NCBI GenBank assembly: GCA_021234155.1
Contig: JAJEKV010000921.1
Location: forward strand, 1 to 64,000
Direction: 5' to 3'
Origin: Isoetes taiwanensis
Lineage: Eukaryota > Streptophyta > Lycopodiopsida > Isoetales > Isoetaceae
DNA: 64,000 nucleotides
Position 1 is the first letter of the stretch, and every line of letters begins with the position of its first letter. A program made the position numbers and the translations under genes. The notes beneath the pieces were generated by a model. That model was given only the letters and a program-made list of their open reading frames with translations. It was not told where the DNA came from and did no database searches. This document shows positions 22,251-50,960 of the stretch, piece after piece.

Positions 22251-23693
22251 TTGGAAAAAAAGAAAATGGAGAAAATAGAAGATGAGAAAAACATTAAAAC
22301 AGAGCTTGTGGAGCAGTACAAAAATATGTTCAAGGACACCCAGCACAATGCTCAAGAGGAGGAGAATATGAATAGATTCTTCAATAACATTCCAGAAACC
22401 ACTCCTATGGAAGAAGATTTGGATGGCTACCCTGATGAAAAAGAGGTGTTGCAAGTCTTGAAAGACATGGAGAAGGGGAAAAGCCCAGGGCCTGATGGCT
22501 TTCCCCCTGAATTCTTTCTGGCTTTCTGGGTAATCATGAAAGAAGACTTTATGGAGTTCATTAAAGGAGCTTGGGATGCAGCCTCTCTTTACCCTGCTTT
22601 CAACTCTAGTCTTATCACCTTAATCCCAAAAGTTAAAAACCCCAGCAAAATAAATGACTGGAGACCAATATCTTTAACAAATACTACCTATAAAATCATT
22701 GCAAAGGTGTTAGCCTGCAGGATTCTCATGCACCTCCACAAATCAGTCAGCAGCTGTCAGTCAGGTTTTCTATCTGGTAGATTTATTCTCGACAATTACA
22801 TTGCTGCCAGTGAAGCAATTCATTGGAATAGACTGTCCAGGCAAAAGTGCATGCTACTCAAATTAGACTTTAGAAGAGCCTATGATACTATAACCTGGCC
22901 CTTCTTAAAGAAAGCAATGGCTCATATAGGTATCCACCATACTCTTATAGACAAAATCATGGCTCTTAACAGTCTTGCCTCCTCTAGTCTGGTTATAAAT
23001 GGTTCTCCTAGCAATTTTTTCCCTATCAGAAAAGGGGTCAGACAAGGATGCCCTTTGGCTCCATATCTTTTTCTTTGTGTAGCAGAAATGCTCACTAGGG
23101 TAGTCCAAGGTCTGCAAATGCAAGGGTTGATTCAAGGAATTCAAATGCCACAACTCACTATAATGCAATATGCTGATGACACTTTTATTCTTCTAAAGGC
23201 CAATCAGAACAGCTTCAATGCTCTCCTGGATAGTATACAATTTTTTGCCTCTGTCTCAGAAGTCCACCTTAATTTGAACAAATGCAGTATTTTGTGGGAG
23301 TGCCCCTCAGATACTATAGACACTAAGGGAATCAAGGTCAATCCAGCCAATCAAGCCATCACTCTTCTTGGTCTCCCTCTAGCTATCAATCTTCCAAACA
23401 AAGAGGTCTGGAGACCTATAGTAAATAGAATCAGGAAAAAACTTCTGTCTCTCTCCCCCACCCTATCCTTTGCTGGCAGAACCCTGATTGCCAATGTAGT
23501 GCTAGCCAGTACCCATGTCTACTTTTCCTCTGCTCTCATTGCAAACAAAGAAACCTATAATGACATTGAAAAATGTCTAAGAAAGTACATTTGGAAAGGT
23601 ATGCACTTTGTTAGATGGGAAGAAATCACACATAGTAAAAAGGAAGGAGAATTTGGGCACGAAAAATTCTCCAAAAACACAGTCAGGCCTTAG
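22251..23693 (+). CDS. LINE ORF2 reverse transcriptase domain
   Basis: A continuous 480-codon frame contains the non-LTR RT motifs in order: KSPGPDGFPPEFF (~residue 80), DWRPISLTNTTYKIIAKVLA (~135), SGFLSGRFILDN (~175), the motif A LKLDFRRAYDTI (~200), RQGCPLAPYLF (~265), the catalytic QYADDTFILL (~303) and LLGLPL (~370). It copies LINE RNA into DNA at the nicked target. The start of the frame lies inside the polyprotein; it is not a separate gene. The frame breaks at 23693 near a GAGAATTTGGGCA stretch and continues in another frame. Confidence 0.85.
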   Translation: MEKKKMEKIEDEKNIKTELVEQYKNMFKDTQHNAQEEENMNRFFNNIPETTPMEEDLDGYPDEKEVLQVLKDMEKGKSPGPDGFPPEFFLAFWVIMKEDFMEFIKGAWDAASLYPAFNSSLITLIPKVKNPSKINDWRPISLTNTTYKIIAKVLACRILMHLHKSVSSCQSGFLSGRFILDNYIAASEAIHWNRLSRQKCMLLKLDFRRAYDTITWPFLKKAMAHIGIHHTLIDKIMALNSLASSSLVINGSPSNFFPIRKGVRQGCPLAPYLFLCVAEMLTRVVQGLQMQGLIQGIQMPQLTIMQYADDTFILLKANQNSFNALLDSIQFFASVSEVHLNLNKCSILWECPSDTIDTKGIKVNPANQAITLLGLPLAINLPNKEVWRPIVNRIRKKLLSLSPTLSFAGRTLIANVVLASTHVYFSSALIANKETYNDIEKCLRKYIWKGMHFVRWEEITHSKKEGEFGHEKFSKNTVRP

Positions 23694-24820
23694 GAGCCAA
23701 GTATGTATGGAAAGCAATAAATGGCTGGGATTCCCCAGCCATGGAGTTTATCAGATATTGGCTGCAGATTAGCAGACCCTTTGGGATGAAAAAATATGCT
23801 CACCACATCCCTGATTCTATTTACTATCAATTTAAGTGTGCCCCCAATACTTCCCCACTAATGAGAAAAATTTTTGAAGCATGGAACTTAGTGGCAGAAG
23901 GATTCGACCACAAGGAGATTAGCTTTGACAGTGCTAATTTCTCCCTTTTCGGTCACCTATTTTTTGCTAGAGAGAATGAAGTTTCTGGGGGCTCTCAAAC
24001 ACCCCAAATATGGAAGAAATGGAAAGAAGCGGGGATAACTCAACTTCAACATCGTGGGATGGAGATAAATGGCATAAATGGGAATATATAAAGCAGGTAA
24101 TTAATGGCAAGAAAATAGACAAAAAGATCTTTGACTCCATTATGAATGTTGCTAGTAGCCAAAGTGAATGCGGCGGCCTTCAAGAGTCGGTGGCATATAA
24201 TGAACTCTGATCATTATAAAGTGGCTTTAGGATACAAGGTGCTGGTCCCAAACAAATCCCCCTTTCAGGCTACCAAATGGCATGTACCAAACAAACACCT
24301 CATGAACATATTGAGAAATAATTGGAAGTCCTATTCTCAACCTAAAATGCAAGTGTTTATATGGAGAACCATCCATAATGCTTTGCCCTCAAACTGTAAT
24401 ATGTTTGAAAGATGCAAGGATCTGCAGGATAACCCCAAATGTAAGCTTTGTGGAGACAGATCTGAAACCATAAATCATATGTTCGACTGCCCCAAAATAA
24501 GAGAGTTTTGGAGATGGCTTGATACTTATCTGAGTTCAAAAGGCCACAATCTAGGCAACTGGGCCAATATCATGGACCTCCTCAAGGGATCAAACAGATT
24601 TTTAAACACTATCAGGCAGACTGCACTATGGATCATATGGAAACACAGGAATAGGGTCAATTATTCAAATCAAAGGGTGGATGTTGCATGGATGAAAGTA
24701 GCTTTCCAAATTGAGATATCAAGATTAGCCATGGCTCATAAGAGCGATAAACAAGATAAATATGATAGTACTTGGTTGTCAATAGGGAAATTTGTTAGTG
24801 CACAATATCTTTGTTTGTGA
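23694..24820 (+). pseudogene. LINE ORF2 C-terminal region with zinc-binding domain
   Basis: The frame GAKYVWKAINGWDSPAMEFI (about 23700 on) and a second frame ending at 24820 hold the conserved plant LINE C-terminus. At about 24345-24500 the segment FIWRTIHNALPSNCNM...CKLCGDRSETINHMF-DCP is the zf-RVT zinc-binding domain with its C-x2-C-x(8)-H-x4-C pattern. Two frameshifts separate the blocks. The last frame ends with a stop at 24818-24820. Confidence 0.75.

Positions 24821-33500: not shown

Positions 33501-33514
<14 letters not shown>

Positions 33515-33545
<31 letters not shown>
33515..33545. repeat. (TA)n microsatellite at the 5' edge of the RT-element array
   Basis: About 15 TA dinucleotides, preceded by (TTA)n, directly precede copy 1 of the 6.9-kb element. 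A similar tract lies between copies 2 and 3 (about 46966-46988), which suggests that the element sits in, or carries, TA-repeat boundaries. Confidence 0.85.
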
Positions 33546-33546
<1 letters not shown>

Positions 33547-36500
33547 AATATATGGTTATGTACTGGTCAAGTAGTAATTGGTTTTGATAAATATCGGGAC
33601 TTGCTCTAGTAATGGTTTGATTTGATAGGGCCACAAGTGACCTAGTGATGACATGGTGCTAGTGGTAGTTTGTGGACAATAGACACGACCATTTCCCTTG
33701 TGGGTTGGGGTAATGTAGCACAAGTAAGTATTTTGGTAAGTTTTGGTAAAATGACACAAGCTAAATCACCACGACCTTTGGGGCATGGTATGCACAATAT
33801 TTTAGCCACAAAATGCACTATGTTAATATAAAAGCGTCTCTCTTTGTTAACACTGGTACTTCTTGTTTTTAAACATTAATTGTAAGGCATGGCTTGGAAT
33901 GGCGGATTATTTCATTATCAAAGCCTAATGGTGCATGTAATTGTGGATACATCGGGTTGGCAAGATCAACCAAAAATTTGGCATTATGGGGTAAGTGTGC
34001 TTTAATTGAGGCACCAACTAAGGTTTTTAAAAAATACATGACCCTTATTTTGGATTAATGTAAGGTGATTTGGTAGAATATCCTTATGCGTATGAGGATC
34101 CCATTAGGTTTTGCAAAATGGTAAAAAGGTTTTTAGGGTTGCTCAAGAATGAGCGCCCTACGATTTCCTGTTGGAGATTGCGGCACTTCTCCACATGATT
34201 GTAGGACCGTGATTTGTCCGGCAACATGAAGATACATGAGATATCCAAGTCAAGTGATGGCAAGGCATTCTTTGGTGTGATCTTTGGTATCTCAAAAATA
34301 GTTAGTATTAGCTGGTGCAACTCGGTTTAGTTAAGCAGATTTAGAAAGAGTATAAGCGAGCTAAAAGGGTCGATTGGACCATATTGCGGATGGGGAACAT
34401 GAGTATGGTGTTGTGGCCCGACAAAATTGCCTATATAAGCAGTTCTTGCTGTAGCAGGCAGAGCATTTTGAAGCTACAGGAGTGGCATGTTGGCGCCTGC
34501 AATGACTAAAGGTAAGCAGACCCGCCAGGATCTGCTGCAGCTAATCAATGGTGCAGGTCTTGATCTGGCAGCATTGTGCAAGAAAGAGGGAGAGGTCTTG
34601 GCACAACCGCAAAGCATTTTACGATTAGAATAGTGGACAAGTTTAATCATTTTGGAGCTCTTCAAAGCAAGAAGGATGATGGGATAATGAAATATGTTTC
34701 ACAATTTGTTGCATCAAAGACACCCTGCGAAGCTCTAGCTTTGAGCAAAGTATTTGAATCAATTGGAATCTGACAAGATCGGGAGAATAGGGAGGGACGA
34801 TGAGATTGAGCTTCTTCTTAACCAGGTTTCTGAGTAAATAGGTTGCTGCTTATTTGGTTTGATTGAGTAGCAGGGCATACACCTGTGTTAATGAACTTAA
34901 AGTTTTCACTAATTCTTGGAACAAACTGGTATCTAAGCTATTAATTGGTGAAGGGCGTTGAGCCATGTTGAGACCATTGCTTACCTGCTAATCCCTTTCG
35001 GTGTTACCCATTCTTGGCTAATATTTGATTGGTTGGATTGCGGTAACGGTCTTACATCTCAGTTTTCTTTTGAATTTTGGATGTTTGGAGACTTGGCGAT
35101 ACAAAGGAGGAAAGAACAAGCAGGAGATTGCTTAAAGACCCTGAAAACTATTCTGAATACTGTTTTAATTTCATGCATTCTATCTTTTCATAAGAAAGGT
35201 AAACTTTATGCATTTTACAAGTTTAAATCTAGCTTTCAAAGACGTCTGCATTGTGGCTTTATGGATACTATCGCTCAAGACAAATAAAAGTGTAAGCCTC
35301 TATGGTTTTTTTTGGGAGTTTAATGGAAGCAGCAATCAGTTTACTTTGTGTCTTTGTTAGTGTTTATTCATGAATTATCCTGCTGGAAATTTAAGGATTT
35401 TAGCATAATGCGGAACATAATCAATAGTGGCTTTAAGTTTTGCTTTAAAATATGCATTAGATGCATGTTAAGTATTCAGCATAATCAAATATAATTTTAG
35501 TAGGGTTCGGCATGGATCTACTGTTGGTGGTTAACTATCTTTTTTTTGAAAGATTAATAGTGAAAGGGTATAAAAATTTAAGTCTCATAGGTATTACCAT
35601 TAAGGAACCACGGTGATGGATTTTATAGGTAAATGGATGCGTGACATGTGCCTTATGGCATAATATTTTTATTCTTATTACGTTTAAGCTTAATCTTTGG
35701 AAAAATTATTTAGTCAAATAACCTAAGGCATCAAATATTGAAGTCGATAAATAATCATGAAGTATGATGGGTTGTCTGTAAATTCATTGAGAAAATGTAA
35801 GCATTGAGGGTGTAAGGTTTATTCTTTGAGCTGCGCCAATGATATCTGAGGGGAGATTAAGACTAAGGAACACTATGAATAATAAGTGTAAGCTAAGCGA
35901 GAAAGATCATTTTATCTAGTCATGGAAATTGAACATCAATACAATAATTAGAATAATTGCTTGTCTTTTAGTACTCTCAAAGAAGAGGAATTGGATTTAT
36001 AGAATTTGTATTAGGGTGGTAAATAAGTATTTATTTGGTTATGTACCTAAAGTAATATGACTAACATAAGATCTCCAAAGTTCCTCGAATAAAGTCACGG
36101 GGTGATAAGTTCTAAGGCTTAAGTGCTTTGGAAAGTCAAGTATATATGCTATGACTTGGGGACATTAGTTCAACTAATGTGGACTTTGGAGATCTAAGTC
36201 TTATGTTTTAAACTGTTGCTGTATTTGTTTGATAATCTAAACTGGCTACTATCTAATTTTGGTCTCGAAACTTTGCCTCAATGGAACTAATGTCTTTTAG
36301 CATGACAGGAGGGTAACAGTAAAGCAAAGGAAACTGCATTTGAGTTGGGTGACCAGCACATATTACGAACAGTCTTGACTATTGAAGTGGTATCGGGGAA
36401 CTTCTTTGAACTAGGATATGGTTATTCCCGTATCATCCCACCAAACAATGCTGTTCAAATAGTTCTCGGGTGTATATTGAAACCAGAGGTGCATAAATAC

Positions 36501-39500
36501 CTCATAAAGAGAGAAGCATTTCTTGATGATAGTGAGATTTCTGTTATCACTTTCCTGGGCGTCAACAATGTGTTCGATCTAGTCAACAAACTCAATATGG
36601 TGTACTTGATATAATTGCTTTGCATGCATTTGGTAGATGAAGTCTATAAAGGCTTTACTGCGGACACATGATGAAGAAAAAGCAGAGAGGTAAGTGATGT
36701 ACTTACTTTCATCAAATGTACTACAGCACTTGAGATGGCCAATGGGTTTAAAGTCACCAATCCTCGGATTAAAAATAAAAAGCCAGTCATGGATATTCCT
36801 AAGGAACCAGAACCAGTAAGATTCAGCAATTGCTTGTTTGATGTGAGTATGCTCCCGGAGGATAAAAGGCAAGCCATCATGAATAGTGGCACCAAAAGTA
36901 GAACTCATGAAACAATACAACAGTGCAGCAGTCTGCTTGATGAATACAATGTCAAGGCATTAACCTTTGAGTAAGCTGTGCTTTGTCCCATCATGTCGGC
37001 CAGGACTAGTGGAACTTCATGGAGTAAAAGGTGAAACCATACTGTGGGATCTGAAGAATCTTGGGATACTTGCTCCTATTAGTGTGGAAACTTGGAAAAG
37101 CATGTAACATCACCAATGCCGAGATTGAGCAGGGCAAACAAAGGCCAATTTGAAACCTTCAAGGAAGGATTGGTAAGGAGGAGGTTACTCTACCATGCAA
37201 AAGTACCCAATTCTTGGCAGAAGTGTGATAAAAATAACGGTATATGGTTGGGGTGAGAGAAAGGCCATATGGCCAAAAGTCACGAGGATAGGGATCGTTT
37301 TACATTGTAAAACTATGGAGGACCTTTGTTAGTTTAAAATGTAAATGTGATAAATTTAGTAAAAAGGCTCTTTGGGGGATGCAATGACAATATTACAGTA
37401 TGACCATGCGGTGCAGTTCATGATGAACAATATGCATGTCTTTTGGCTGATGAAAGTTGCACTAGTAGGTTACGCCTATTTTCTGACATGATGAACTCCA
37501 AAGCAATGAGAAAAGGTGCCATTGCATTTCTGTCCTATCTAAAAGTTAGGGAAACATTAATCCAGATGACTTCCAGGATGGCTGAGAACAAAAAAACAGA
37601 CTTCAAGGATGTATTTGGTAATACCAAGCTGGTAGACGATGCGGAAAAACAATAAAAATGCTAGCTTCATGGAAGGCGCCCTCCTTTGGATCTGAGGCGG
37701 TAATGTGTTCAAAAGCTCGTACAAAAGAAAAATTCAGACAATAGAGGAGGATGACATAAAGATCATCATGCCACCAAAACTTGGTAAGAAAGGTACTGCT
37801 GCTACTACCCCCACTACTACTAGTGGTCTTGAACAGGTTTCGGACTGTGCACATGATGTTGGAGTGGACACGGGGCACTCTGTCGGCCAAAAACAATCTT
37901 TTGGATCTGGTCATTATGGAGGGTGAGTGCGAACCAAAATCTCCTTCTAAGGAAAAGTAAGTTTCCACTAGCAACTTGAATAATGTTATTCTCATTTGCA
38001 AACGTATTATGTATGATTGTGTATTGCTGCTGTAAAGCACAGAATTCTGTGCTATACTGTCATATACTAACAAAGAATAATGACCTTAGGTCATAAAGTA
38101 GCCCTTTTATTAGGGCCTAACATATTCCAGTCTTACAAGGCCATGTGAGGATGGTCATACACTCCAAACATACATGTTACTTGTAACATGGATGCGAATC
38201 TTAGGTACTAACCGAGTGTGACTTTGTACAACAGGATAAGGATAAAATCCTGGTTAGGAAAGCTGAAGGTAGATGGGCTATTAAAACGTACAAAAGTAAG
38301 TCAAAAAAGACTTTTGTGCACTTCAGATTTTTCTCTAAAGCAATTGATAAGATCAGATTTCAGAAAGCATTTTCTGAGATAGTATGCCATAATTTTGGTA
38401 AAGTGGGAGAAAAAATTATGGAGCACACCACATTTGGCTGGTCGTATACGGAAAGCCTCAAAGGGATGCTGTACAAACCAAAGCTGGTTTTTCTTTGAAT
38501 CAATGTGGCCCCCCCCCATGCCATAATCCTACTCGAAAAAATTCATCTCCGTGAGATTGGGCATATCGCACGCTGCCCGACCTTACAATTGTACATAGTA
38601 AGGCCCTGCGAAAATGGCTGGCAATTGGCCTCAATCATATCCCGGATAAGCCATTCACATTAACCACATTCAAAAATGAAATGGCAAAAACTGTGGAACA
38701 GTTCTTCCGTATTCATAAGTACAGTTTTAAGGAGCTATTTGACAAAGCACGTCACGACGACCAAGAAGCGGATTATGGCCAAGGCTACTAAATTAGCTAG
38801 GGAGTTTATTAAGGCTAACTCCAGGAACCAGAAGAAATTTCAGATCATTGATGAGGCAGTGACCAAAAATATTGAGTGGTTAAATAATAATTTGTACATT
38901 TACGGGTGTGGATAAAGTGACAAATAACCTGCTTCCGCCCCGGACACATTAGGAGCAGTACATTTGCTAAGACTAGGCAGTGAGGATTTTATTGAGATTC
39001 ACTCCAATACGGTTGATTTAGTAAAATCTATTAAGTGTACCATTCGAGTTTCCTTGGGAATTTGGGAAATTAATTAGCCAAATCGCCTTTCCTTCTAGCC
39101 ATATACAAGGCACATAAAGCAGACTTCTGGTGGATCACAAGTGCCTTTGACTCAATTTTTCACAACTATCTTCTTTAGTTCTTTGCGAGGACTAAACACT
39201 TTTCTTACTATGGTAGGAGATATGTGAAAATAGTTTGGCAAAGGTCAATTTCTTTAGAAAAGGAAAAATCATAGCCTCTGGTGATAGACTGTTTATGACA
39301 TAACATGTAACTTCGGCGAAAATCACGGAAGTTTTTGTAGCGGACATAACAAGATGTTACGAGAATATCCCCATTGAAGGGGTTGATGGGATCTGCAATG
39401 TACTGGCACTGGTTGCTGGTATGGTATGGAAGCACCAAAAGGCCAAAAACAGTGAATATCAGATTTGGTATAAGGTTAAGAACAATGGGGAAATATTCTT

Positions 39501-40112
39501 TGGAATGGAAGGTTGACCGCCTACAAGCAAAAAGTGGACTGCATCGAGGAATCTAGATTCATAGAAATGAACTCGGCTTTTGAGAAATTGCTATCTGCGG
39601 ATGGGAGACAAATTCTGGCGACAGATTAAAGGTATTCCAATGGGTTTTTCCTCAAGCCCTGCGTGGTGCAACTTGTACCTCGCATGGTTTGAGCTAGAAT
39701 TCATACTCCGTCTGATAAGAAATGGCTGGCCGGAAGCTGCGGTGACCTTCTCTAACACATTTAGATACATAGATGACCTGGCCAGTATAAACAACAGGTA
39801 CATCAGAGGATTCTTAGGACTGGAAGAACAGGTCGTGACCCAAAATCCCATCTACAACCTCAACTACCTAACTATTCAGGATGAAACTGTTTATTGGCCT
39901 TTAGGTAGCGTTGGTGGTATGTGCACGGGAAGGTTGATTAACTTCCTCAACATGACTATTGAGGTAAGCGATACAGCGAATGGCATTTATGATATATACA
40001 AATGCGATAAAAAAGAAAAGTTGCCGTTCAAAGCGTCAAAGTTTGGCCATGCAAATGGTTGCGAGACCTTACCAAATGGCTAAGAATAATATTGTATCCG
40101 CAGATTCAACCT
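33546..40112 (+). mobile_element. Penelope-like RT element, copy 1, damaged and 3'-truncated
   Basis: Copy 1 follows copy 2 through the 5' leader, the TATA box (about 34434), exon 1 (34487-34825), the intron, exon 2 (about 36320-37980) and the RT exon (about 38230-40112). It stops inside the RT C-terminus at ...CAGATTCAACCTTG and is fused there to the 5' leader of copy 2. Parts are essentially identical to copy 2 (34382-34600 and most of the intron). Others carry many indels that break the frame, nearly always where copy 2 has CAG or CTG. Catalytic motifs FVADITRCYENIP and FRYIDDLASIN are still readable. Confidence 0.8.
39580..40083 (+). pseudogene. RT fragment of copy 1
   Basis: The longest surviving RT piece of copy 1 covers KGIPMGFSSSPAWCNLYLAW (motif B) and FRYIDDLASINN (motif C, catalytic YIDD), up to FGHANGC. 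It then runs out of frame at ETLPNG and stops. Copy 2 reads CRPYQMAKNN at the same place, so a single extra G ends the frame. Confidence 0.8.
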
Positions 40113-40948
40113 TGCTAGTAATGGTTTGATTTGATAATGGGGCCAGGGCCAAGTGACCTAGTGATGACATGGTGCTAGTGGTAGTTTGTGGACAATAGAC
40201 CTGACCATTTCCCTTGTGGGTTGGGGTAATGTAGCACAAGTAAGTATTTTGGTAAGTTTTGGTAAAATGACACAAGCTAAATCACCCTGACCTTTGGGGC
40301 ATGGTATGCACAATATTTTAGCCACAAAATGCACTATGTTAATATAAAAGCAGTCTGCTGTTAACCTGGTACTTCTTGTTTTAAACATTAATTGTAAGGC
40401 ATGGCTTGGAATGGCCGGATTATTTCATTATCAAAGCCTAATGGTGCATGTAATTGTGGATACATCAGGTTGGCAAGATCAACCAAAAATTTGGCGTATG
40501 GGGTAAGTGTGCTTTAATTGAGGCACCAACTAAGGTTTTTTTAAAAAAAATACATGACCCTTATTTTGGATTAATGTAAGCTGAGCTGGTAGAATATCCT
40601 TGTACGTATGAGGATCCCATTAGGTTTTGCAAAATGGTAAAGGTTTTTTAGGGTTGCTCAAGAATGAGCCGCCTACGATTTCACAGACTGGAGATTCTGG
40701 CACTTCTCCACATGATTGTAGACCGTGATTTGTCCAGCAACATGAAGATACATGAGATATCCGTCAAGTGATGGCAAGGCATTGCTGGTGTGATGCTGGT
40801 ATCTCCAAAAATAGTTAGTATTAGCTGGTGCAACTCAGCGGTTTAGTTAGAGCAGATTTAGAAAGAGTATAGCAGAGCTAAAAGGGTCGATTGGACCATA
40901 TTGCGGATGGGGAACATGAGTATGGTGTTGTGGCCCGACAAAATTGCC

Positions 40949-40956
40949 TATATAAG
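40949..40956 (+). promoter_or_regulatory. TATA box of copy 2
   Basis: TATATAAG lies 48 bases upstream of the exon 1 ATG (41004), within CCTATATAAGCAGTTC. It is conserved at the matching place in copy 1 (about 34434) and copy 3 (about 47879). Distance to the ATG implies a short 5' UTR. It is the best candidate for the transcription start of the element. Confidence 0.6.
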
Positions 40957-41003
40957 CAGTTCTTGCTGTAGCAGGCAGAGCATTTTGAAGCTACAGGAGT
41001 GGC

Positions 41004-41339
41004 ATGTTGGCGCCTGCAATGACTAAAGGTAAGCAGACCCGCCAGGATCTGCTGCAGCTAATCAATGGTGCAGGTCTTGATCTGGCAGCATTGTGCAAGA
41101 AAGAGGGAGAGGTCTTGGCACAACCCAGCAAAGCATTTCTGATTAGAATAGTGGACAAGTTTAATCTGGCTGGAGCTCTTCAAAGCAAGAAGGATGATGG
41201 GATAATGAAATATGTTTCACAAGCTGACTGCATCAAAGACACCCCTGAGGCTAGCCTGAGCAAAGTAGCTGAATCAATTGGAATACAGCAAGATCAGGAG
41301 AATGAGGAGGACGATGAGATTGAGCTTCTTCTTAACCAG
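41004..41339 (+). CDS. RT element copy 2, exon 1 (112 codons)
   Basis: The frame opens MLAPAMTKGKQTRQDLLQLI and ends DDEIELLLNQ; a second ATG at 41019 is also possible. Directly after CAG at 41339 comes GTTTCTGAG; without splicing the frame would stop nine bases on. Splicing to CAG|GAGGGTAAC at 42832 keeps the frame in phase 0. The peptide is small, charged and acidic at its end. No family was recognised. A coiled-coil or nucleic-acid-binding role would be a guess. Copies 1 and 3 carry damaged versions. Confidence 0.6.
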
Positions 41340-42831
41340 GTTTCTGAGTAAATAGGTTGCTGCTTATTTGGTTTGATTGAGTAGCAGGGCATACACCTGT
41401 GTTAATGAACTTAAAGTTTTCACTAATTCTTGGAACAAACTGGTATCTAAGCTATTAATTGGTGAAGGGCGTTGAGCCATGTTGAGACCATTGCTTACCT
41501 GCTAATCCCTTTCAGTGTTACCCATTCTTGGCTAATATTTGATTGGTTGGATTGCAGGTAACCGGTCTTACATCTCCAGTTTTCTTTTTGAATTTTGGAT
41601 GTTTGGAGACTTGCTGATACAAAAGGAGGAAAGAACAAGCAGGAGATTGCTTAAAGACCCTGAAAACTATTCTGAATACTGTTTTAATTTCATGCATTCT
41701 ATCTTTTCATAAGAAAGGTAAACTTTATGCATTTTACAAGTTTAAATCTAGCTTTCAAAGACGTCTGCATTGTGGCTTTATGGATACTATCGCTCAAGAC
41801 AAATAAAAGTGTAAGCCTCTATGGTTTTTTTTGGGAGTTTAATGGAAGCAGCAATCAGTTTACTTTGTGTCTTTGTTAGTGTTTATTCATGAATTATCCT
41901 GCTGGAAATTTAAGGATTTTAGCATAATGCGGAACATAATCAATAGTGGCTTTAAGTTTTGCTTTAAAATATGCATTAGATGCATGTTAAGTATTCAGCA
42001 TAATCAAATATAATTTTAGTAGGGTTCGGCATGGATCTACTGTTGGTGGTTAACTATGCTGTTTTGAAAGATTAATAGTGAAAGGAGTATAAAGAATTTA
42101 AGTCTCATAGGTATTACCATTAAGGAACCACAGTGATGGATTTTATAGGTAAATGGATCTGTGACATGTGCCTTATGGCATAATATTTTTTATTCTTATT
42201 ACGTTTAAGCTTAATGCTGGAAAAATTATTTAGTCAAATAACCTAAGGCATCAAATATTGAAGTCAGTAAATAATCATGAAGTATGATGGGTAATCTGTA
42301 AATTCAGCAGAAAATGTAAGCATTGAGGGTGTAAGGTTTATTTGCTGGCTGCTGGCCAATGATAATACAGGGAGATTAAGACTAAGGAACACTATGAATA
42401 ATAAGTGTAAGCTAAACAGAAAGATCATTTTTATCTAGTCATGGAAATTGAACATCAATACAATAATTAGAATAATTGCTTGTCTTTTAGTACTCTCCAA
42501 AGAAGAGGAATTGGATTTATAGGACTGTATTAGGGTGGTAAATAAGTATTTGACTGGTTATGTACCTAAAGTAATATGACTAACATAAGATCTCCAAAGT
42601 TCCTCCAGAATAAAGTCTGGGGACTGATAAGTTCTAAGGCTTAAGTGCTTTGGAAAGTCCAAGTATATATGCTATGACTTCAGGACATTAGTTCAACTAA
42701 TGTGGACTTTGGAGATCTAAGTCTTATGTTTTAAACTGTTGCTGTATTTGTTTGATAATCTAAACTGGCTACTATCTAATTTTGGTCTCGAAACTTTGCC
42801 TCAATGGAACTAATGTCTTTTAGCATGACAG
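41340..42831 (+). other. Intron in RT element copy 2 (~1.49 kb)
   Basis: The predicted intron has donor CAG|GTTTCT and acceptor ATGACAG|GAGGG, with both flanking exons in phase 0. It is A/T-rich, stop-filled in all frames and nearly identical in all three copies where the sequence is clean (for example 41352-42040 against 48289-48977). Retention in every tandem copy shows the copies did not arise from spliced mRNA. The alternative is that it is a spacer between two genes, but the phase match and lack of an ATG at the start of the next frame favour an intron. Confidence 0.6.
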
Positions 42832-44478
42832 GAGGGTAACAGTAAAGCAAAGGAAACTGCATTTGAGTTGGGTGACCAGCACATATTACCTGAACAGTCT
42901 GACAGCTATTCGAAGTGGTATCAGGAACTTGCTGAACTAGGATATGGTTATTCCCGTATCATCCCACCAAACAATGCTGTTCAAATAGTTCTCGGGTGTA
43001 TATTGAAACCAGAGGTGCATAAATACCTCATAAAGAGAGAAGCATTTCTTGATGATAGTGAGATTTCTGTTATCACTTTCCTGGGCGTCAACAATGTGTT
43101 CGATCTAGTCAACAAACTCAATATGGCTGGTAACGATATAATTGCCTGCATGCATTTGGTAGATGAAGTCTATAAGGCTTTACCTGCAGCACATGAAGAA
43201 GCTGAAAACAGAGAGGTAAGTGATGTACTTACTTTCATCAAATGTACTACAGCACTTGAGATGGCCAATGGGTTTAAAGTCACCAATCCTCGGATTAAAA
43301 ATAAAAAGCCAGTCATGGATATTCCTAAGGAACCAGAACCAGTAAGATTCAGCAATTGCTTGTTTGATGTGAGTATGCTCCCGGAGGATAAAAGGCAAGC
43401 CATCATGAATAGTGGCACCAAAAGTAGAACTCATGAAACAATACAACAGTGCAGCAGTCTGCTTGATGAATACAATGTCAAGGCATTAACACTGAGTAAC
43501 TGTGGCACCTGTCCCATCATGTCAGCCAGACTAGTGGAACTTCATGGAGTAAAGGTGAAACACGCCCTGTGGGATACGAAGAATCTTGGGATACTTGCTC
43601 CTATTAGTGTGGAAACTTGGAAAAGCTTATGTAACATCACCAATGCCGAGATTGAACAGGCAAACAAGGACGCTGAAACCTTCAACAGAAGGATTGGTAA
43701 GGAGGAGGTTACTCTACCATGCAAAAGTACCCAATTCTTCGGCAAGAAGTGTGATAAAAATAACGGTATATGGCTGGGGCAGAAAGGCCATATGGCCAAG
43801 AAGTCTGAGGATAGGGATACGTTTTACATTGTAAAACTATGGAGGACCTTTTGTCCGTTTCTGAAATGTAAATGTGATAAATTTAGTAAAAAGGCTGCTG
43901 GGGGATGCAATGACAATATTACCTGGTATGACCATGCGGTCTGGTTCATGATGAACAATATGCATGTCTTTTGGCCTGATGAAAGTTGCACTAGTAGGTT
44001 CTGCCTATTTTACAGCATGATGAACTCCAAAGCAATGAGAAAAGGTGCCATTGCATTTCTGTCCTATCTAAAAGTTAGGGAAACATTAATCCAGATGACT
44101 TCCAGGATGGCTGAGAACAAAAAAACAGACTTCAAGGATGTATTTGGTAATACCAAGCTGGTAGACATTCTGGAAAAAACAATAAAAAATGCTAGCTTCA
44201 TGGAAGACTGCCCTCCTTTGGATGCAGACGGTAATGTGTTCAAAAGCTCGTACAAAAGAAAAATTCAGACAATAGAGGAGGATGACATAAAGATCATCAT
44301 GCCACCAAAACTTGGTAAGAAAGGTACTGCTGCTACTACCCCCACTACTACTAGTGGTCTTGAACAGGTTTCGGACTGTGCACATGATGTTGGAGTGGAC
44401 ACGGGGCACTCTGTCAGCAAAAACAATACTGGATACAGTCGTATGGAGGGGGTGGTGCGAACCAAAATCTCCTTCTAA
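42832..44478 (+). CDS. RT element copy 2, exon 2, unknown module (~549 codons)
   Basis: Open from the acceptor at 42832 (EGNSKAKETAFELGDQHI) to TAA at 44476. There is no ATG before the conserved start, which supports splicing from exon 1. Visible features: an all-helical-looking N-terminal half with GYGYSRIIPPNNAVQIVLGC, a cysteine-rich stretch near residue 310 (CPFLKCKCDKFSKKAAGGC) that could bind zinc, a W-D/W-F segment (ITWYDHAVWFMMNNMHVFW), and a low-complexity ATTPTTTS tail. No GIY-YIG, gag or protease motif was recognised. It sits where other Penelope-like elements have a nuclease or an upstream ORF. Near the end a second frame reads ECEPKSPSKEK in copy 1, so the exact 3' border is uncertain. 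Confidence 0.65.
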   Translation, partial: EGNSKAKETAFELGDQHILPEQSDSYSKWYQELAELGYGYSRIIPPNNAVQIVLGCILKPEVHKYLIKREAFLDDSEISVITFLGVNNVFDLVNKLNMAGNDIIACMHLVDEVYKALPAAHEEAENREVSDVLTFIKCTTALEMANGFKVTNPRIKNKKPVMDIPKEPEPVRFSNCLFDVSMLPEDKRQAIMNSGTKSRTHETIQQCSSLLDEYNVKALTLSNCGTCPIMSARLVELHGVKVKHALWDTKNLGILAPISVETWKSLCNITNAEIEQANKDAETFNRRIGKEEVTLPCKSTQFFGKKCDKNNGIWLGQKGHMAKKSEDRDTFYIVKLWRTFCPFLKCKCDKFSKKAAGGCNDNITWYDHAVWFMMNNMHVFWPDESCTSRFCLFYSMMNSKAMRKGAIAFLSYLKVRETLIQMTSRMAENKKTDFKDVFGNTKLVDILEKTIKNASFMEDCPPLDADGNVFKSSYKRKIQTIEEDDIKIIMPPKLGKKGTAATTPTTTSGLEQVSDCAHDVGVDTGHSVSKNNTGYSRMEGVVRTKISF

Positions 44479-44762
44479 GGAAAAGTAAGTTTCCACTAGC
44501 AACTTGAATAATGTTATTCTCATTTGCAAACGTATTATGTATGATTGTGTATTGCTGCTGTAAAGCACAGAATTCTGTGCTATACTGTCATATACTAACA
44601 AAGAATAATGACCTTAGGTCATAAAGTAGCCCTTTTATTAGGGCCTAACATATTCCAGTCTTACAAGGCCATGTGAGGATGGTCATACACTCCAAACATA
44701 CATGTTACTTGTAACATGGATGCGAATCTTAGGTACTAACCGAGTGTGACTTTGTACAACAG
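44479..44762 (+). other. Candidate second intron or inter-ORF spacer
   Basis: A strong donor-like GTAAGT (44485) and an acceptor TTTGTACAACAG (ending 44762) bound this A/T-rich stretch in copies 1 and 2. The reverse transcriptase frame begins right after the acceptor and lacks an early ATG. However, the phases of exon 2 and the RT exon do not join at these exact sites without a frame change, so a true intron is not proven. Confidence 0.4.
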
Positions 44763-46835
44763 GATAAGGATAAAATCCTGGTTAGGAAAGCTGAAGGTAG
44801 ATGGGCTATTAAAACGTACAAAAGTAAGTCAAAAAAGACTTTTGTGCACTTCAGATTTTTCTCTAAAGCAATTGATAAGATCAGATTTCAGAAAGCATTT
44901 TCTGAGATAGTATGCCATAATTTTGGTAAAGTGGGAGAAAAAATTATGGAGCACACCACATTTGGCTGGTCGTATACGGAAAGCCTCAAAGGGATGCTGT
45001 ACAAACCAAAGCTGGTTTTTGCTGAATCCAATGTGGCCCCCTGCCCATGCCATAATCCTACTCTGAAAAAATTCATCTCCAGTGAGATTGGGCATATACG
45101 CACAACTGACCTTACAATTGTACATAGTAAGGCCCTGCGAAAATGGCTGGCAATTGGCCTCAATCATATCCCGGATAAGCCATTCACATTAACCACATTC
45201 AAAAATGAAATGGCAAAAACTGTGGAACAGTTCTTCCGTATTCATAAGTACAGTTTTAAGGAGCTATTTGACAAAGCTTCTGTCCTGACAGCCAAGAAGC
45301 AGATTATGGCCAAGGCTACTAAATTAGCTAGGGAGTTTATTAAGGCTAACTCCAGGAACCAGAAGAAATTTCAGATCATTGATGAGGCAGTGACCAAAAA
45401 TATTGAGTGGTTAAATAATAATTTGTACATTTCTGGTGTGGATAAGGCGGCAAATAACCCCTGCTTCATCTGCCCCAGACACATTAGGGAACAGGCGCTG
45501 CTAAGACTAGGCAGTGAGGATTTTATTGAGATTCACTCCAATACGGTTGATTTAGTAAAATCTATTAAGTGTACCATTCAGAGTTTCCTTGGGGACTGGG
45601 AAATTAATTGGCCAAATCTGCCTTTCCTTCTAGCCATATACAAGGCACATAAACAGACTTACAGGTGGATCACAAGTGCCTTTGACTCAATTTTTTCACA
45701 ACTATCTTCTTTAGTTGCTGCAGGACTAAACACTTTTCTTACTATATGGCCGGAGATATGTGAAAATAGTTTGGCAAAGGTCAATTTCTTTAGAAAGGAA
45801 AAAATCATAGCCTCCTGGCTGATAGACTCTGTTTATGACATAACATGTAACTTGCCGGCGAAAATCACGGAAGTTTTTGTAGCGGACATAACAAGATGTT
45901 ACGAGAATATCCCCATTGAAGGGGTTGATGGGATCTGCAATGTACTGGCACTGGTTGCTGGTATGGTATGGAAGCACCAAAAGGCCAAAAACAGTGAATA
46001 TCAGATTTGGTATAAGGTTAAGAACAATGGGGAAATATTGCTGGAATGGAAGGTTGACACGCCTACAAGCAAAAAGTGGACCTGCATCGAGGAATCTAGA
46101 TTCATAGAAATGAACTCCTGGCTTTTGAGAAATTGCTATCTGCAGATGGGAGACAAATTCTGGCGACAGATTAAAGGTATTCCAATGGGTTTTTCCTCAA
46201 GCCCTGCGTGGTGCAACTTGTACCTCGCATGGTTTGAGCTAGAATTCATACTCCGTCTGATAAGAAATGGCGAACTGGAAACTGCAGCAGCCTTCTCTAA
46301 CACATTTAGATACATAGATGACCTGGCCAGTATAAACAACAGGTACATCAGAGGATTCTTAGGACTGGAAGAACAGGTCGTGACCCAAAATCCCATCTAC
46401 AACCTCAACTACCTAACTATTCAGGATGAAACTGTTTATTGGCCTTTAGGTAACAGTGGTATGTGCACGGGAAGGTTGATTAACTTCCTCAACATGACTA
46501 TTGAGGTAACTGATACAACGAATGGCATTTATGATATATACAAGTACGATAAAAGAGAAAAGTTGCCGTTCAAAGCGTCAAAGTTTGGCCATGCAAATGG
46601 TTGCAGACCTTACCAAATGGCTAAGAATAATATTGTATCACAGATTCAGCCTTGCCTTTATGTGCACAGTAACCCGTCTAGAGCAGCTATGGATTTGAAT
46701 GATCTGATACAACAGTTCATTAACAAAGGCTTCAGTGCCAGTGACATTTGGTACACGGTTAACAAGACGCTAAAAAATGGAGTATTCCCTGGACTAAAGT
46801 TCAACCTTGCAATATCAAGGCCTCGAACTACGTAA
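44763..46835 (+). CDS. Penelope-like reverse transcriptase (copy 2, intact, ~690 codons)
   Basis: The frame runs from the acceptor (DKDKILVRKAEGRWAIKTYK) to TAA at 46833. Key features are: a CxC motif CPCH (45042-45053) followed by GHIRTTDL; DKAANN (45441), at the place of the DKG motif of Penelope-like RTs; a K-A-H-K block (motif 2-like); motif A FVADITRCYENIP with catalytic Asp at 45885; motif B KGIPMGFSSSPAWCNL; motif C FRYIDDLASIN with the Asp pair at 46317-46322; and a motif D/E region ending FGHANGC. All three catalytic aspartates are present, so activity is possible. The CxC domain and IPMG ally it with the Naiad/Chlamys-type Penelope-like elements, from what I recall of that family. 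The first in-frame ATG is at 44946, inside conserved sequence, so translation from a spliced upstream exon is likely. Confidence 0.82.
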   Translation, partial: DKDKILVRKAEGRWAIKTYKSKSKKTFVHFRFFSKAIDKIRFQKAFSEIVCHNFGKVGEKIMEHTTFGWSYTESLKGMLYKPKLVFAESNVAPCPCHNPTLKKFISSEIGHIRTTDLTIVHSKALRKWLAIGLNHIPDKPFTLTTFKNEMAKTVEQFFRIHKYSFKELFDKASVLTAKKQIMAKATKLAREFIKANSRNQKKFQIIDEAVTKNIEWLNNNLYISGVDKAANNPCFICPRHIREQALLRLGSEDFIEIHSNTVDLVKSIKCTIQSFLGDWEINWPNLPFLLAIYKAHKQTYRWITSAFDSIFSQLSSLVAAGLNTFLTIWPEICENSLAKVNFFRKEKIIASWLIDSVYDITCNLPAKITEVFVADITRCYENIPIEGVDGICNVLALVAGMVWKHQKAKNSEYQIWYKVKNNGEILLEWKVDTPTSKKWTCIEESRFIEMNSWLLRNCYLQMGDKFWRQIKGIPMGFSSSPAWCNLYLAWFELEFILRLIRNGELETAAAFSNTFRYIDDLASINNRYIRGFLGLEEQVVTQNPIYNLNYLTIQDETVYWPLGNSGMCTGRLINFLNMTIEVTDTTNGIYDIYKYDKREKLPFKASKFGHANGCRPYQMAKNNIVSQIQPCLYVHSNPSRAAMDLNDLIQQFINKGFSASDIWYTVNKTLKNGVFPGLKFNLAISRPRTT

Positions 46836-46879
46836 ATACGTGTACTTTCTTGCCTATACGTCACATTAAGTACAGTTGG

Positions 46880-46911
46880 CAGGGGGTCCCTAGAATATAG
46901 GGACCCCCCTG
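46880..46911 (+). repeat. 3' hairpin of the RT element
   Basis: CAGGGGGTCCCTA, loop GAATA, TAGGGACCCCCCTG pairs over 13 bp with one bulged C. It lies 44 bases after the RT stop and about 55 bases before the (TA)n border. It could be the structured 3' end recognised by the RT, or an RNA-processing signal. Only copy 2 retains this region. Confidence 0.75.
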
Positions 46912-46965
46912 TCCTTATAAATTCTAGGGTCTACTCGCCTTTCCGGTAGGTGGTAGGGTTTTAGC

Positions 46966-46988
46966 TATATATATATATATATATATAT
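46966..46988. repeat. (TA)n tract between copies 2 and 3
   Basis: About eleven TA dinucleotides join the 3' end of copy 2 (GGGTTTTAGC) to the intact 5' end of copy 3 (TCAAATTAACCCGCGG). Copy 1 also begins after (TA)n, so the tract marks the element border. Confidence 0.85.
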
Positions 46989-49586
46989 CAAATTAACCCG
47001 CGGTTATGTACTGGTCAAGTAGTAATTGGTTTTGATAAATATCAGGACTTGCTCTAGTAATGGTTTGATTTGATAGGGCCACAAGTGACCTAGTGATGAC
47101 ATGGTGCTAGTGGTAGTTTGTGGACAATAGACCTGACCATTTCCCTTGTGGGTTGGGGTAATGTAGCACAAGTAAGTATTTTGGTAAGTTTTGGTAAAAT
47201 GACACAAGCTAAATCACCCTGACCTTTGGGGCATGGTATGCACAATATTTTAGCCACAAAATGCACTATGTTAATATAAAAGCAACACTGTTAACCTGGT
47301 ACTTCTTGTTTTAAACATTAATTGTAAGGCATGGCTTGGAATGGCCGGATTATTTCATTATCAAAGCCTAATGGTGCATGTAATTGTGGATACATCAGGT
47401 TGGCAAGATCAACCAAAAATTTGGCGATGGGGTAAGTGTTTTAATTGAGGCACCAACTAAGGTTTTTTAAAAAAAATACATGACCCTTATTTTGGATTAA
47501 TGTGTCGAGCTGGTAGAATATCCTTGTAACGCATGAGGATCCCATTAGGTTTTGCAAAATGGTAAAGGTTTTTTAGGGTTGCTCAAGAATGAGCCGCCTA
47601 CGATTTCACAGACTGGAGATTCTGGCACTTCTCCACATGATTGTAGACCGTGATTTGTCCAAAGAACATGAAGATACATGAGATATCCGCCAAGTGATGG
47701 CAAGGCATTGCCGGTGTGATCTTGGTATCTCCAAAAATAGTTAGTATTAGCTGGTGCAACTCAAATGGGTTTAGTTAGAGCAGATTTAGAAAGAGTATAG
47801 CAGAGCTAAAAAGGGTCGATTGGACCATATTATGGATGGGGAACATGAGTATGGTGTTGTGGCCCGACAAAATTGCCTATATAAGCAGTTCTTTGTCAGA
47901 AAGGTGCGAGCATTTTGAAGCTACAGGAGGGCATGTTGGTTACCGCGAATGACTAAAGGTGCTGCTGACCCGCCAGATCTCGGCCGCAGCCTAATCAATG
48001 GTGCGGTGTCTTGATCCGGCAAAGATTGTGCAAGAAAGAGGGAGAGGTCTTGGCACAACCCAAAGCAAAGCATTTCTGATTAGAATAGTGGACAAGTTTA
48101 ATCTGGCTGGAGCTCTTCAAAGCAAGAAGGATGATGGGATAATGAAATATGTTTCACAAGCTGACTGCATCAAAGACACCCCTGAGGCTAGCCTGAGCAA
48201 AGTAGCTGAATCAATTGGAATACAGCAAGATCAGGAGAATGAGGAGGACGATGAGATTGAGCTTCTTCTTAACCAGGTTTCTGAGTAAATAGGTTGCTGC
48301 TTATTTGGTTTGATTGAGTAGCAGGGCATACACCTGTGTTAATGAACTTAAAGTTTTCACTAATTCTTGGAACAAACTGGTATCTAAGCTATTAATTGGT
48401 GAAGGGCGTTGAGCCATGTTGAGACCATTGCTTACCTGCTAATCCCTTTCAGTGTTACCCATTCTTGGCTAATATTTGATTGGTTGGATTGCAGGTAACC
48501 GGTCTTACATCTCCAGTTTTCTTTTTGAATTTTGGATGTTTGGAGACTTGCTGATACAAAAGGAGGAAAGAACAAGCAGGAGATTGCTTAAAGACCCTGA
48601 AAACTATTCTGAATACTGTTTTAATTTCATGCATTCTATCTTTTCATAAGAAAGGTAAACTTTATGCATTTTACAAGTTTAAATCTAGCTTTCAAAGACG
48701 TCTGCATTGTGGCTTTATGGATACTATCGCTCAAGACAAATAAAAGTGTAAGCCTCTATGGTTTTTTTTGGGAGTTTAATGGAAGCAGCAATCAGTTTAC
48801 TTTGTGTCTTTGTTAGTGTTTATTCATGAATTATCCTGCTGGAAATTTAAGGATTTTAGCATAATGCGGAACATAATCAATAGTGGCTTTAAGTTTTGCT
48901 TTAAAATATGCATTAGATGCATGTTAAGTATTCAGCATAATCAAATATAATTTTAGTAGGGTTCGGCATGGATCTACTGTTGGTGGTTAACTATGCTGTT
49001 TTGAAAGATTAATAGTGAAAGGAGTATAAAGAATTTAAGTCTCATAGGTATTACCATTAAGGAACCACAGTGATGGATTTTATAGGTAAATGGATCTGTG
49101 ACATGTGCCTTATGGCATAATATTTTTTATTCTTATTACGTTTAAGCTTAATGCTGGAAAAATTATTTAGTCAAATAACCTAAGGCATCAAATATTGAAG
49201 TCAAGAATAATCATGAAGTATGATGGGTAATCAGAAATTCAAAGTAAAATGTAAGCATTGAGGGTGTAAGGTTTATTTGCTGGCTGCTGGCCAATGATAA
49301 TACAGGGAGATTAAGACTAAGGAACACTATGAATAATAAGTGTAAGCTAAACAGAAAGATCATTTTTATCTAGTCATGGAAATTGAACATCAATACAATA
49401 ATTAGAATAATTGCTTGTCTTTTAGTACTCTCAAAGAGAATTGGATTTATGATGCATGTATTGGTGGTAAATAAGTATATTTGGTTATATACCTAAAGTA
49501 ATATGACTAACATAAGATCTCAAAGTTCCTCGGAATAAATCCAGGGCATGTAAAGTTCTAAGGCTTATATGCTGGAAAGTTTTATG
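46989..49586 (+). mobile_element. Penelope-like RT element, copy 3, truncated in the intron
   Basis: Copy 3 has the full 5' leader, the TATA box (about 47879) and exon 1 (about 47941-48276), then the intron to about 49586, where an expanded (TA)n tract takes over. 48080-49195 is essentially identical to copy 2. 47400-48075 and 49200-49586 carry indels at CAG/CTG sites, including some that break the start of exon 1. Exon 2 and the RT are missing. Weak similarity to the next intron bases may persist to about 49715. Confidence 0.8.
47998..48288 (+). pseudogene. Exon 1 of copy 3, 5' part damaged
   Basis: From KAFLIRIVDKFNLAGALQSK onward the frame matches exon 1 of copy 2 to DDEIELLLNQ, and ends at the same unspliced stop. 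Upstream of that point (47941-48060) small insertions and losses near CTG and CAG triplets destroy the MTKGKQTRQDLLQL part. Confidence 0.65.
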
Positions 49587-49592
49587 ATATAT

Positions 49593-49661
<69 letters not shown>
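49587..49661. repeat. Long (TA)n microsatellite
   Basis: About 75 bases of nearly pure TA end copy 3. It starts at the natural GTATATATGC site of the intron, so it may have expanded from within the element or be the target microsatellite. Confidence 0.9.
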
Positions 49662-49699
49662 TATACATTATATATATGTTCTTATGTTTGTCCTCTAAA

Positions 49700-50040
49700 T
49701 CCGGCTGGTTGATCCAGAGATCCCTACGGCTCACGTGGCTTTGGGGCGTATCCTGACCCGGATGGCTTGGGGAGTTTGTGTATAGACTTATATGTAAGCG
49801 ATCCCTACGGTCCGGTTGATTTGATCCTGATCGTCGGTCCGGGATCCTACGACACATTGCTTTGGGACACATCTTACGGTTGCACATGGCTTTGGGGAAT
49901 TATATAATCGATCCTATGGTCTAGGGTTCTTGATCTTGATCGTCGATCTAGGATCTCACGGCTCATGTTGCTTTTAATTTTTTGCCACATGGCGCGATCC
50001 TAAACCCTTGATCGGTCCAAGATCCCTGACCCATGTTGAA
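49700..50040. repeat. Degenerate ~110-bp tandem repeat with GATC cores
   Basis: Units of the form CGATCCTAYGGTC...TTGATCYTGATCGTCGRTC followed by GGATCCTACGRC-CATGTTGCTTTGGG recur near 49718, 49799, 49909 and 49992. Internal pairs GATCGTCGATC and GGTCCGGGATCC are self-complementary. No coding potential. Confidence 0.65.
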
Positions 50041-50159
50041 TGCTCATCCTTTGGGAAAGGCTTTTAAAATAAGGGCCAGATCCTGTTGTGTTGGATGCTC
50101 ATTTAAGGAACCACGGTTTCATTGACCCCCAGCCCCCATTCTAACCACTAAACCAAGCA

Positions 50160-50960
50160 TTAATTCTATGAATAATTTATGTTTCAAATATACTTAAGGG
50201 TAACAATCTAGTAAAGATAAAATGGGTATAACATTCTAACTAGTTCAAAAGGAATCTACAGGAAGGAAAGTTCTAGAATCTTCTAGAAAGTTCAAAATAT
50301 TCTAGAAAATTCTAGAACATAATAAAAATCTATGAAAATTCTTCGAGAAAGTTTCAAATTGTCTAATGGGTTCTAGAATGTTGAGAATGTAGGAATCCAT
50401 GGGAAGGTAAAAGAGAATTTAGGACATACTTCCGAAAAGTTCTAGGATATTTTGAAAGTCTCGAATGTTCGAGAGAAAGTCTTAGAATGTTCGAAAGCCT
50501 TAGAATGTTCTAAAAGTTCTAGAATGTAAAAGGAATCGAGGAAGAATCTAATGGAATCAAGAAAATCTCATAAAATGTGTGAGAGAATCTAGGAAAAATA
50601 TTTACAAGCCTAAAGGAATCTCTTAAAATCTAGGGGATCTAAGGAATCTTCATAAAATCTAAGGCAATCTAGGAAAATGTTGATAAATCTTAGGTATCTA
50701 AAAGGAATCTTTATAGAATCTCTTTGAATCTCATATAATAGGGAACCTAAAAGGCAATCTCATAAAATCTAAAAGGGATCTAAGGGGAATCTAAGGGGAT
50801 CGTCATAGAATCTTGGAGAATCTCAATCTAATGGAATCTGGGGGAATCTTATAAATTTAGAGAATCTCCACAGGAAACCTCAAGAGAACCTTGGTAGAAT
50901 CTTAAAGAATCCTATGAATTTAGAGTATTCTCAAGACATTCTTTTTAAAATGTAGAGACA
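50160..50960. repeat. Low-complexity TCTAGAA / AATCTAAGG repeats
   Basis: From about 50260 to 50520 the sequence is a string of TTCTAGAA, GTTCTAGAAT and AGTTCnAGAAT motifs. From 50520 to 50960 it turns into AATCTAAGGGGATCT and GGAATCTCATAAAATCT units of 10-20 bases. The whole stretch is a decayed short-period tandem repeat, purine-rich on the plus strand and non-coding. Confidence 0.75.

Follow-up and report, generated by a model that had tools for sequence, protein, structure and literature searches.

A probable Penelope-like retrotransposon at (TA)n tracts of the quillwort Isoetes taiwanensis, with a putative intronic start site for reverse transcription

The reverse transcriptases (RTs) of telomerase and of Penelope-like elements (PLEs) have a common ancestry (PMC3846280; this and the other papers cited here by PMC number are drawn on for the parts of their text that were available). 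For the Penelope element of an anole, purified protein starts reverse transcription inside its own RNA, at a stem-loop of the open reading frame (ORF), and the genomic tails of the element end at those internal start sites (Frangieh et al., PMC11167929). Endonuclease-deficient PLEs, including Athena and the Terminons of rotifers and an element of the spike moss Selaginella, are located at telomeres (PMC6431247, PMC3846280, PMC12477314), the Selaginella elements being reported as telomere-attached (PMC12477314). Conifers also carry Penelope elements, which have been described as transferred from arthropods (PMC10473749). Here we analyze a window of 64,000 nucleotides (nt) from the quillwort Isoetes taiwanensis (contig JAJEKV010000921.1, positions 1 to 64,000, nearly the whole of a 64,891-base contig), which contains a tandem, intron-bearing retroelement. 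It is probable, taking the three parts jointly, that this element is a Penelope-like retrotransposon without a recognizable endonuclease, that it inserts into (TA)n microsatellites, and that reverse transcription starts from a (TA)n end paired with a structured RNA (RNA-B) within the intron of its unspliced RNA, after which the cDNA would jump to the 3' end.

The quillwort element resembles Poseidon of Anolis carolinensis in its telomerase-like RT, its tandem units, its long terminal repeat (LTR)-like repeats with a tail, its AT-rich targets and, as we infer for the quillwort, an internal start at an RNA stem-loop within the unit (PMC11167929). It differs from Penelope and Poseidon in that neither a GIY-YIG endonuclease nor a hammerhead ribozyme was found, in having a second, uncharacterized protein and in its repeat of 2.4-3.1 kb; unlike the start site described for the anole, the proposed site is intronic and matches the target. 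With the Athena-type PLEs it shares an RT without an endonuclease, head-to-tail arrays and an RNA end complementary to the recipient repeat, whereas its targets are interstitial TA tracts and not telomeric repeats. Athena, Coprina and the Selaginella element were compared by description only, and no sequence of the last was found in the collections searched. The conifer elements, likewise compared by description, share with it the occurrence of a Penelope-type element in a land plant. Coprina of fungi is an endonuclease-deficient PLE at telomeres, and the conifer elements are named Dryad. Telomerase reverse transcriptase (TERT) seems to provide the nearest solved fold to the RT, and the stretch before the RT aligns with the region before the RT of TERT, which we take, by human numbering, to be the RNA-binding domain. 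As in telomerase, a DNA repeat end would appear to be extended on a short repeat in a structured RNA; unlike TERT, the element is mobile and multicopy, its template RNA is the element itself, and PF12009 (the telomerase RNA-binding domain) is not among the Pfam matches of its RT at E <= 1, while the TERT of the host genome matches PF12009 at 1.1e-31.

Array structure and flanking TA tracts

A first-pass annotation had described three head-to-tail copies of a unit of about 6.9 kb. A scan for repeats of at least 150 nt bears out three head-to-tail units at about 33545-49586, with near-identical direct-repeat families across 33554-49435 at spacings of about 6514-6545 and 6932-6937 bases and no inverted repeat pairs across the array. 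The plant host and the intron-bearing tandem retroelement are also supported, and the earlier ORF list (exon 1, a 549-aa exon-2 ORF and the RT exon) agrees with our reading. The tandem order thus stands, although the copies are not equal. Unit 1 (33545..40115; the units, exons, introns and RNA folds lie on the forward strand) is decayed, with its RT frameshifted and cut before its end, and it joins unit 2 through a short microhomology with no TA tract. Unit 2 (40116..46965) has open coding exons and lacks about 66 nt of its 5' end; (TA)11 (46966..46988) separates it from unit 3 (46989..49586), which starts with CAAATTAACCCGCGG, covers exon 1 and intron 1 and stops inside RNA-B, its end lying at a long (AT)n tract. 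The array is bordered by a (TA)n tract on its 5' side (33514..33544) and by an (AT)n tract on its 3' side (49587..49677), followed by a dispersed host repeat. Small differences of units 1 and 3 from unit 2 cluster, as judged by eye, at GCTG/CAGC-like words; these look like residual long-read errors, so that the assembly itself may account for some of the decay seen in these two units.

We mapped the insertion structure at 11 loci, the window included. A TA tract forms the 5' side at all 11 (at C1039 it follows the end of another unit, and at C908, where the start motif was unrecognized, the tract was taken as the edge), and a TA tract of about 8 to 106 nt forms the 3' side at all 10 loci with the end in view. 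The window outside the element contains three runs of (TA)8 or longer, amounting to 78 of 47,850 nt. The flanks at the mapped loci are TA tracts and not telomeric repeats, a statement confined to these 11 loci, as no genome-wide telomere survey was made. In addition, the same dispersed host repeat (window 49678-50677) lies beside the element in the window and at C1034 and C919, in both orientations.

Head-to-tail units giving LTR-like repeats, a PLE trait, are present in the form of a downstream partial unit, here called A' (unit 3 in the window), which occurs at nine of the 11 loci and is absent at C963b and C1069. A' begins at or near CAAATTAACCCGCGG and follows a TA tract at eight of the nine loci (usually 10-14 repeats, about 7 in C908 and about 40 in C1039 and C941); at C1025 the unit-A' junction has no TA tract and A' continues through exon 2. 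At six loci (C11, C1034, C1047, C908, C919 and C941) A' ends with GGCCAA(G)TATATAT followed by TA, and in C1039 and the window it ends inside RNA-B, some 10-35 nt short. With the limits of the unit (A) and of A' set by hand, identity is 95.5-99.2% between repeats belonging to a single element (12 comparisons at 8 loci, whole-unit pairs included) and 72.4-80.5% between different elements over 824-2068 aligned nt (28 comparisons). Because A' is nearly identical to its own element and unlike the others, it is remade from that element, as LTRs are, and its end point must be set anew on each occasion.

Conserved RNA folds of the element

RNA-B (42589..42717), a multi-branched fold in intron 1, is the proposed start site of reverse transcription. 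It contains the TATATAT (42664..42670) at which the downstream partial copies at other loci stop, and its closing stem of 14 bp spans the end point of A'. The alignment comprises 18 full-length sites found by a pattern with few mismatches; decayed copies are thus absent from it, several rows are close relatives from one array or tandem, and the A' copies, which lack the 3' half of the fold, were left out. Across the 39 pairs, 98.3% of cells are paired. Eight pairs, in three of the five helices, change on both sides, compared with 1.9 in shuffles, and none of 500 shuffles reached as high; sliding the partners abolishes this covariation signal. Because common ancestry of the rows can inflate tests of this sort, most weight falls on the two-sided pairs. 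The fold has a z of -7.35.

RNA-C (46872..46965) consists of hairpins after the RT stop. Its alignment comprises 18 forward matches; L012, a truncated L025 site and the reverse-strand matches that the palindrome produces were left out. Six pairs change on both sides, a number that none of 500 shuffles reached, each of them in one sequence only and three of the six at the base of a helix where single decayed or shifted copies differ. The folding energy beats all but one of 300 shuffles.

RNA-A (41457..41610), a near-invariant hairpin in intron 1, pairs CUUACCUGC with GCAGGUAAC and is 90-97% identical to that of the window in 18 fetched loci, where the exons are 68-81% identical outside the close C1069 copies. 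Its fold z is -4.3 (41474-41620). In the alignment of 17 of the 18 matches (the decayed unit 1 of the window was left out) a single pair changes on both sides, so the structure rests on energy and conservation. The hairpin buries a donor-like CAG|GTAACC, which resembles the U1 pairing sequence; at a guess, RNA-A might hold splicing back, and it may be a splicing regulator or a small-RNA precursor. No Rfam family, hammerhead included, reached the gathering score in the window or in 13 loci, and permissive Rfam scans of three stretches for another ribozyme gave sub-threshold, chance-like matches that we rejected.

The first-pass annotation, while correct on the tandem retroelement, did not include the TA target, the second intron, these RNA folds, or the LTR-like partial copy ending in structured intronic RNA.

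Kinship, copy number and expression

The first-pass assignment of the RT to the Penelope-like class is supported by profile comparison, while a tree with very long reference branches gives it no firm placement. With hhalign, the RT family of the element matched P0011, which comprises RT domains and what was read as a GIY-YIG end, at E 1.4e-6 (probability 90, 388 columns), and the RT of P0009 at E 6e-28. The comparison with the plant long interspersed element (LINE) of the window gave E 0.29 with the RT motifs unaligned, which argues against an L1-type kinship, and that with the first part of the host TERT gave E 0.18 without aligning the RT. In the tree, calculated without TERT as its RT motifs did not align, two PLE references cluster, and the end branches of the references and the LINE are 2.7-10 changes long. 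The RT is 32-33% identical to its closest relatives; among RT relatives, P0004-P0008 have RMMDD in place of RYIDD at the catalytic box. Pfam searches at E <= 1 detected no GIY-YIG domain in exon 1, exon 2 or the RT of the window, nor in 11 exon-2 copies, and an NCBIfam scan for it elsewhere yielded a chance match only. The RT profile had no match among solved-structure sequences, and three queries found no relatives in viral contigs. An initial single-sequence structure search returned glucose-6-phosphatase constructs (0.0053 and weaker), which were rejected as chance. The assembly carries a telomerase gene on C1056 and a second, low-complexity telomerase-like gene on C1062, which may come from another organism.

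The first-pass annotation had noted that a single genomic locus would speak for a cellular gene. This objection is removed, as a DNA search with the RT against the assembly (1,658,258,908 bases in 1110 contigs) gave at least 43 match places, a lower bound since 40 of 500 candidates were scored; the two of the window are included, and some are pieces of one copy. The matches are 65-99% identical (the query itself apart) and lie on many contigs, with several tandem pairs. We fetched 20 stretches (L009-L028), the flanks of 10 loci and 4.6 kb of one more divergent copy (L049), in which relatives of exon 1 and exon 2 are present. Open frames are frequent among the fetched copies for exon 1, exon 2 and the RT alike, and some copies are decayed; the first 560-980 nt of the unit, including the promoter, have no blastn match in the fetched loci on other contigs. 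Leaving out copies with stops or with a reading start that could not be set, and not counting pairs with saturated dS, the median dN/dS is 0.149 for exon 1 (8 copies; 28 of 28 pairs), 0.055 for exon 2 (12 copies; 36 of 66 pairs, single pairs reaching 0.768) and 0.076 for the RT (9 copies; 35 of 36 pairs), with a median dS above 1 among the copies compared. Old lineages, open frames and purifying selection together indicate a long-lived, active family. The element is old, present in many copies and subject to purifying selection, and is not a duplicated cellular gene.

The coding part of exon 1 (41019..41339) ends AACCAG|GTT in phase 0. Intron 1 (41340..42831) keeps its CAG|GTT donor, weak after the GT, in 12 of 13 aligned copies, and a branch-like ACTAA and CAG|G acceptor in all 13. 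The coding part of exon 2 (42832..44478) has a conserved core rich in C, H and W, and its 549-aa ORF opens one codon ahead of it. Between this ORF and the RT lies intron 2 (44485..44762), with TACTAACC and a CAG|G acceptor in 17 of 17 copies and a donor that reads GTAAG in 15 and GTATG in two. Most aligned copies also have three small hairpins in intron 2 (ATGACC..GGTCAT, GCCCTT..AAGGGC and CATGTTAC..GTAACATG), and its folding energy beats all but one of 300 shuffles. The RT exon (44763..46835) begins with a region that aligns with the telomerase region before the RT, followed by the RT itself. The aligned copies retain the sequence and splice sites of both predicted introns, as the first-pass annotation had stated for the first of them, and its claim of a large uncharacterized module also holds: the exon-2 ORF had no homologs at E <= 0.01 and, in 11 copies, no Pfam matches at E <= 1. 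Three matches of the exon-2 profile to solved structures (0.055 to 0.6) were not believed, and the structure of the exon-2 ORF by itself (pLDDT 33) was not used.

As to expression, the two acceptors share phase 0 with exon 1, and the simplest reading of the sequence would be that exon 1 is joined alternatively to exon 2 or to the RT exon. We propose the latter joining because the coding constraint on the RT starts at its splice acceptor: residues 11-72, just up to the first Met codon of the RT ORF in the window, have a median dN/dS of 0.129 (10 copies; 39 of 45 pairs). In most copies the RT would therefore seem to depend on another exon for its start codon. Just upstream of the RT acceptor, the frame has stops in five of 10 translated copies (L013, L014, L015, L016 and L020). 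A fusion of exon 2 and the RT by stop read-through was rejected, as the exon-2 frame is not continuous into the RT in seven of 17 copies. It is also conceivable, and compatible with any of the views on integration below, that exon 1 is spliced to exon 2 and not to the RT exon, the RT being translated as a second cistron downstream of the exon-2 stop. The aligned exon-2 stop codon starts 6-9 nt ahead of the intron-2 donor in 17 of 17 copies, as it would in a two-cistron message, and two of 10 copies (L014 and L015) have a Met codon at RT residue 12. Yet the selection on residues 11-72 acts in copies that mostly lack an early ATG, and the frame across intron 2 is broken in those same seven copies, so that we regard a second cistron as doubtful and alternative joining of exon 1 as the better account.

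Proposed mechanism, alternatives and novelty

Retention of the intron, together with the conservation of its RNA folds, suggests that the unspliced RNA serves as the template. The telomerase-like RT would bind RNA-B in intron 1, and a broken or nicked (TA)n end would pair with the UAUAUAU of RNA-B and prime synthesis, which would proceed to the 5' end of the RNA and yield A', the partial copy. With TA at its end, the cDNA could then jump by TA pairing to the (UA)n that follows RNA-C at the 3' end of the RNA, and would go on to copy at least one whole unit. Priming on RNA-B followed by the jump would give the order (TA)n-[unit-(TA)n]n-A'-(TA)n, as seen, and a start site on an intronic RNA would explain both the location at TA repeats and the retention of the intron. 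Spliced RNA would provide the proteins, with exon 1 spliced in phase 0 either to exon 2 or to the RT exon. More tentatively, and with less than even confidence, the RT may hold RNA-B as a template and extend (TA)n breaks on UAUAUAU, possibly repeatedly; the intron would be kept as a priming site, splicing would decide between messenger and template, and the element would represent a deep, unreported PLE lineage with its own accessory protein family.

The support for RNA-C is weaker than that for RNA-B. The divergent copy L049 gave no RNA-A match and a match to RNA-B of just 46 nt, so that conservation of these two folds is established for only part of the family. That A' stops at one nucleotide position in six loci also suits a different explanation, namely that RNA-B is self-cleaving or processed by the host, with tandem read-through RNA being cut after UAUAUAU so that the RNA 3' end sets the stop of A'. 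Penelope elements are tandem and have hammerhead ribozymes in their repeats (PMC11167929, PMC6431247), and RNA-B is compact and conserved. By contrast, no Rfam family was found at the gathering score in the window or in 13 loci, only a miRNA and a snoRNA model appear at E <= 10 in 42480-42780, and the hammerhead core is absent. The closing stem, moreover, spans the end point, so the fold requires sequence downstream of the cut. We therefore consider cleavage unlikely compared with priming by a (TA)n end.

Still less probable, to the point of being improbable, is the formation of arrays and partial copies by DNA recombination between TA tracts, with no reverse transcription. TA tracts do lie at most junctions, and the unit 1-unit 2 and C1025 unit-A' joints, which lack them, resemble recombination or deletion joints; recombination would nevertheless not end A' at the same internal nucleotide in different loci, nor would it maintain about 97% identity among the repeats within an element against a divergence of about 25% from one element to another. 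That the RT is a duplicated or domesticated gene of the cell, a view that long-term purifying selection would suit, is refuted almost with certainty by copy number and insertion structure, given match places on many contigs instead of a few fixed copies, some decayed copies, and insertions with LTR-like repeats adjoining the same host repeat in both orientations.

In the literature searched, outside which key subscription papers lay, we found nothing that describes a PLE from Isoetes, TA targeting combined with a structured start site in an intron, or such an exon-2 protein; "Penelope" is absent from the main text, as available, of the genome papers on I. taiwanensis (PMC8566536) and I. sinensis. 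Internal initiation has already been published for the anole Penelope, and what is new here is the location at TA tracts, the LTR-like partial copy and the proposed intronic site matching the target. The element touches on why Penelope elements keep introns, how they make LTR-like repeats and how those without an endonuclease choose their targets, and one arrangement bears on all three, in that the intron holds the apparent start site and the site matches the target repeat. Given the shared ancestry of telomerase and Penelope RTs, an element that starts on a short repeat in a structured RNA at the end of repeat DNA may be a living analogue of the step from retroelement to telomerase. The proposal is testable with one RT, one short RNA and one primer.

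Elsewhere in the window, remains of the L1-type plant LINE lie at 18549-24820, with endonuclease-like, RT and C-terminal pieces, named by reading their translations, in separate ORFs, and a 38-bp tandem array of about 40 copies occupies 4217-5701.

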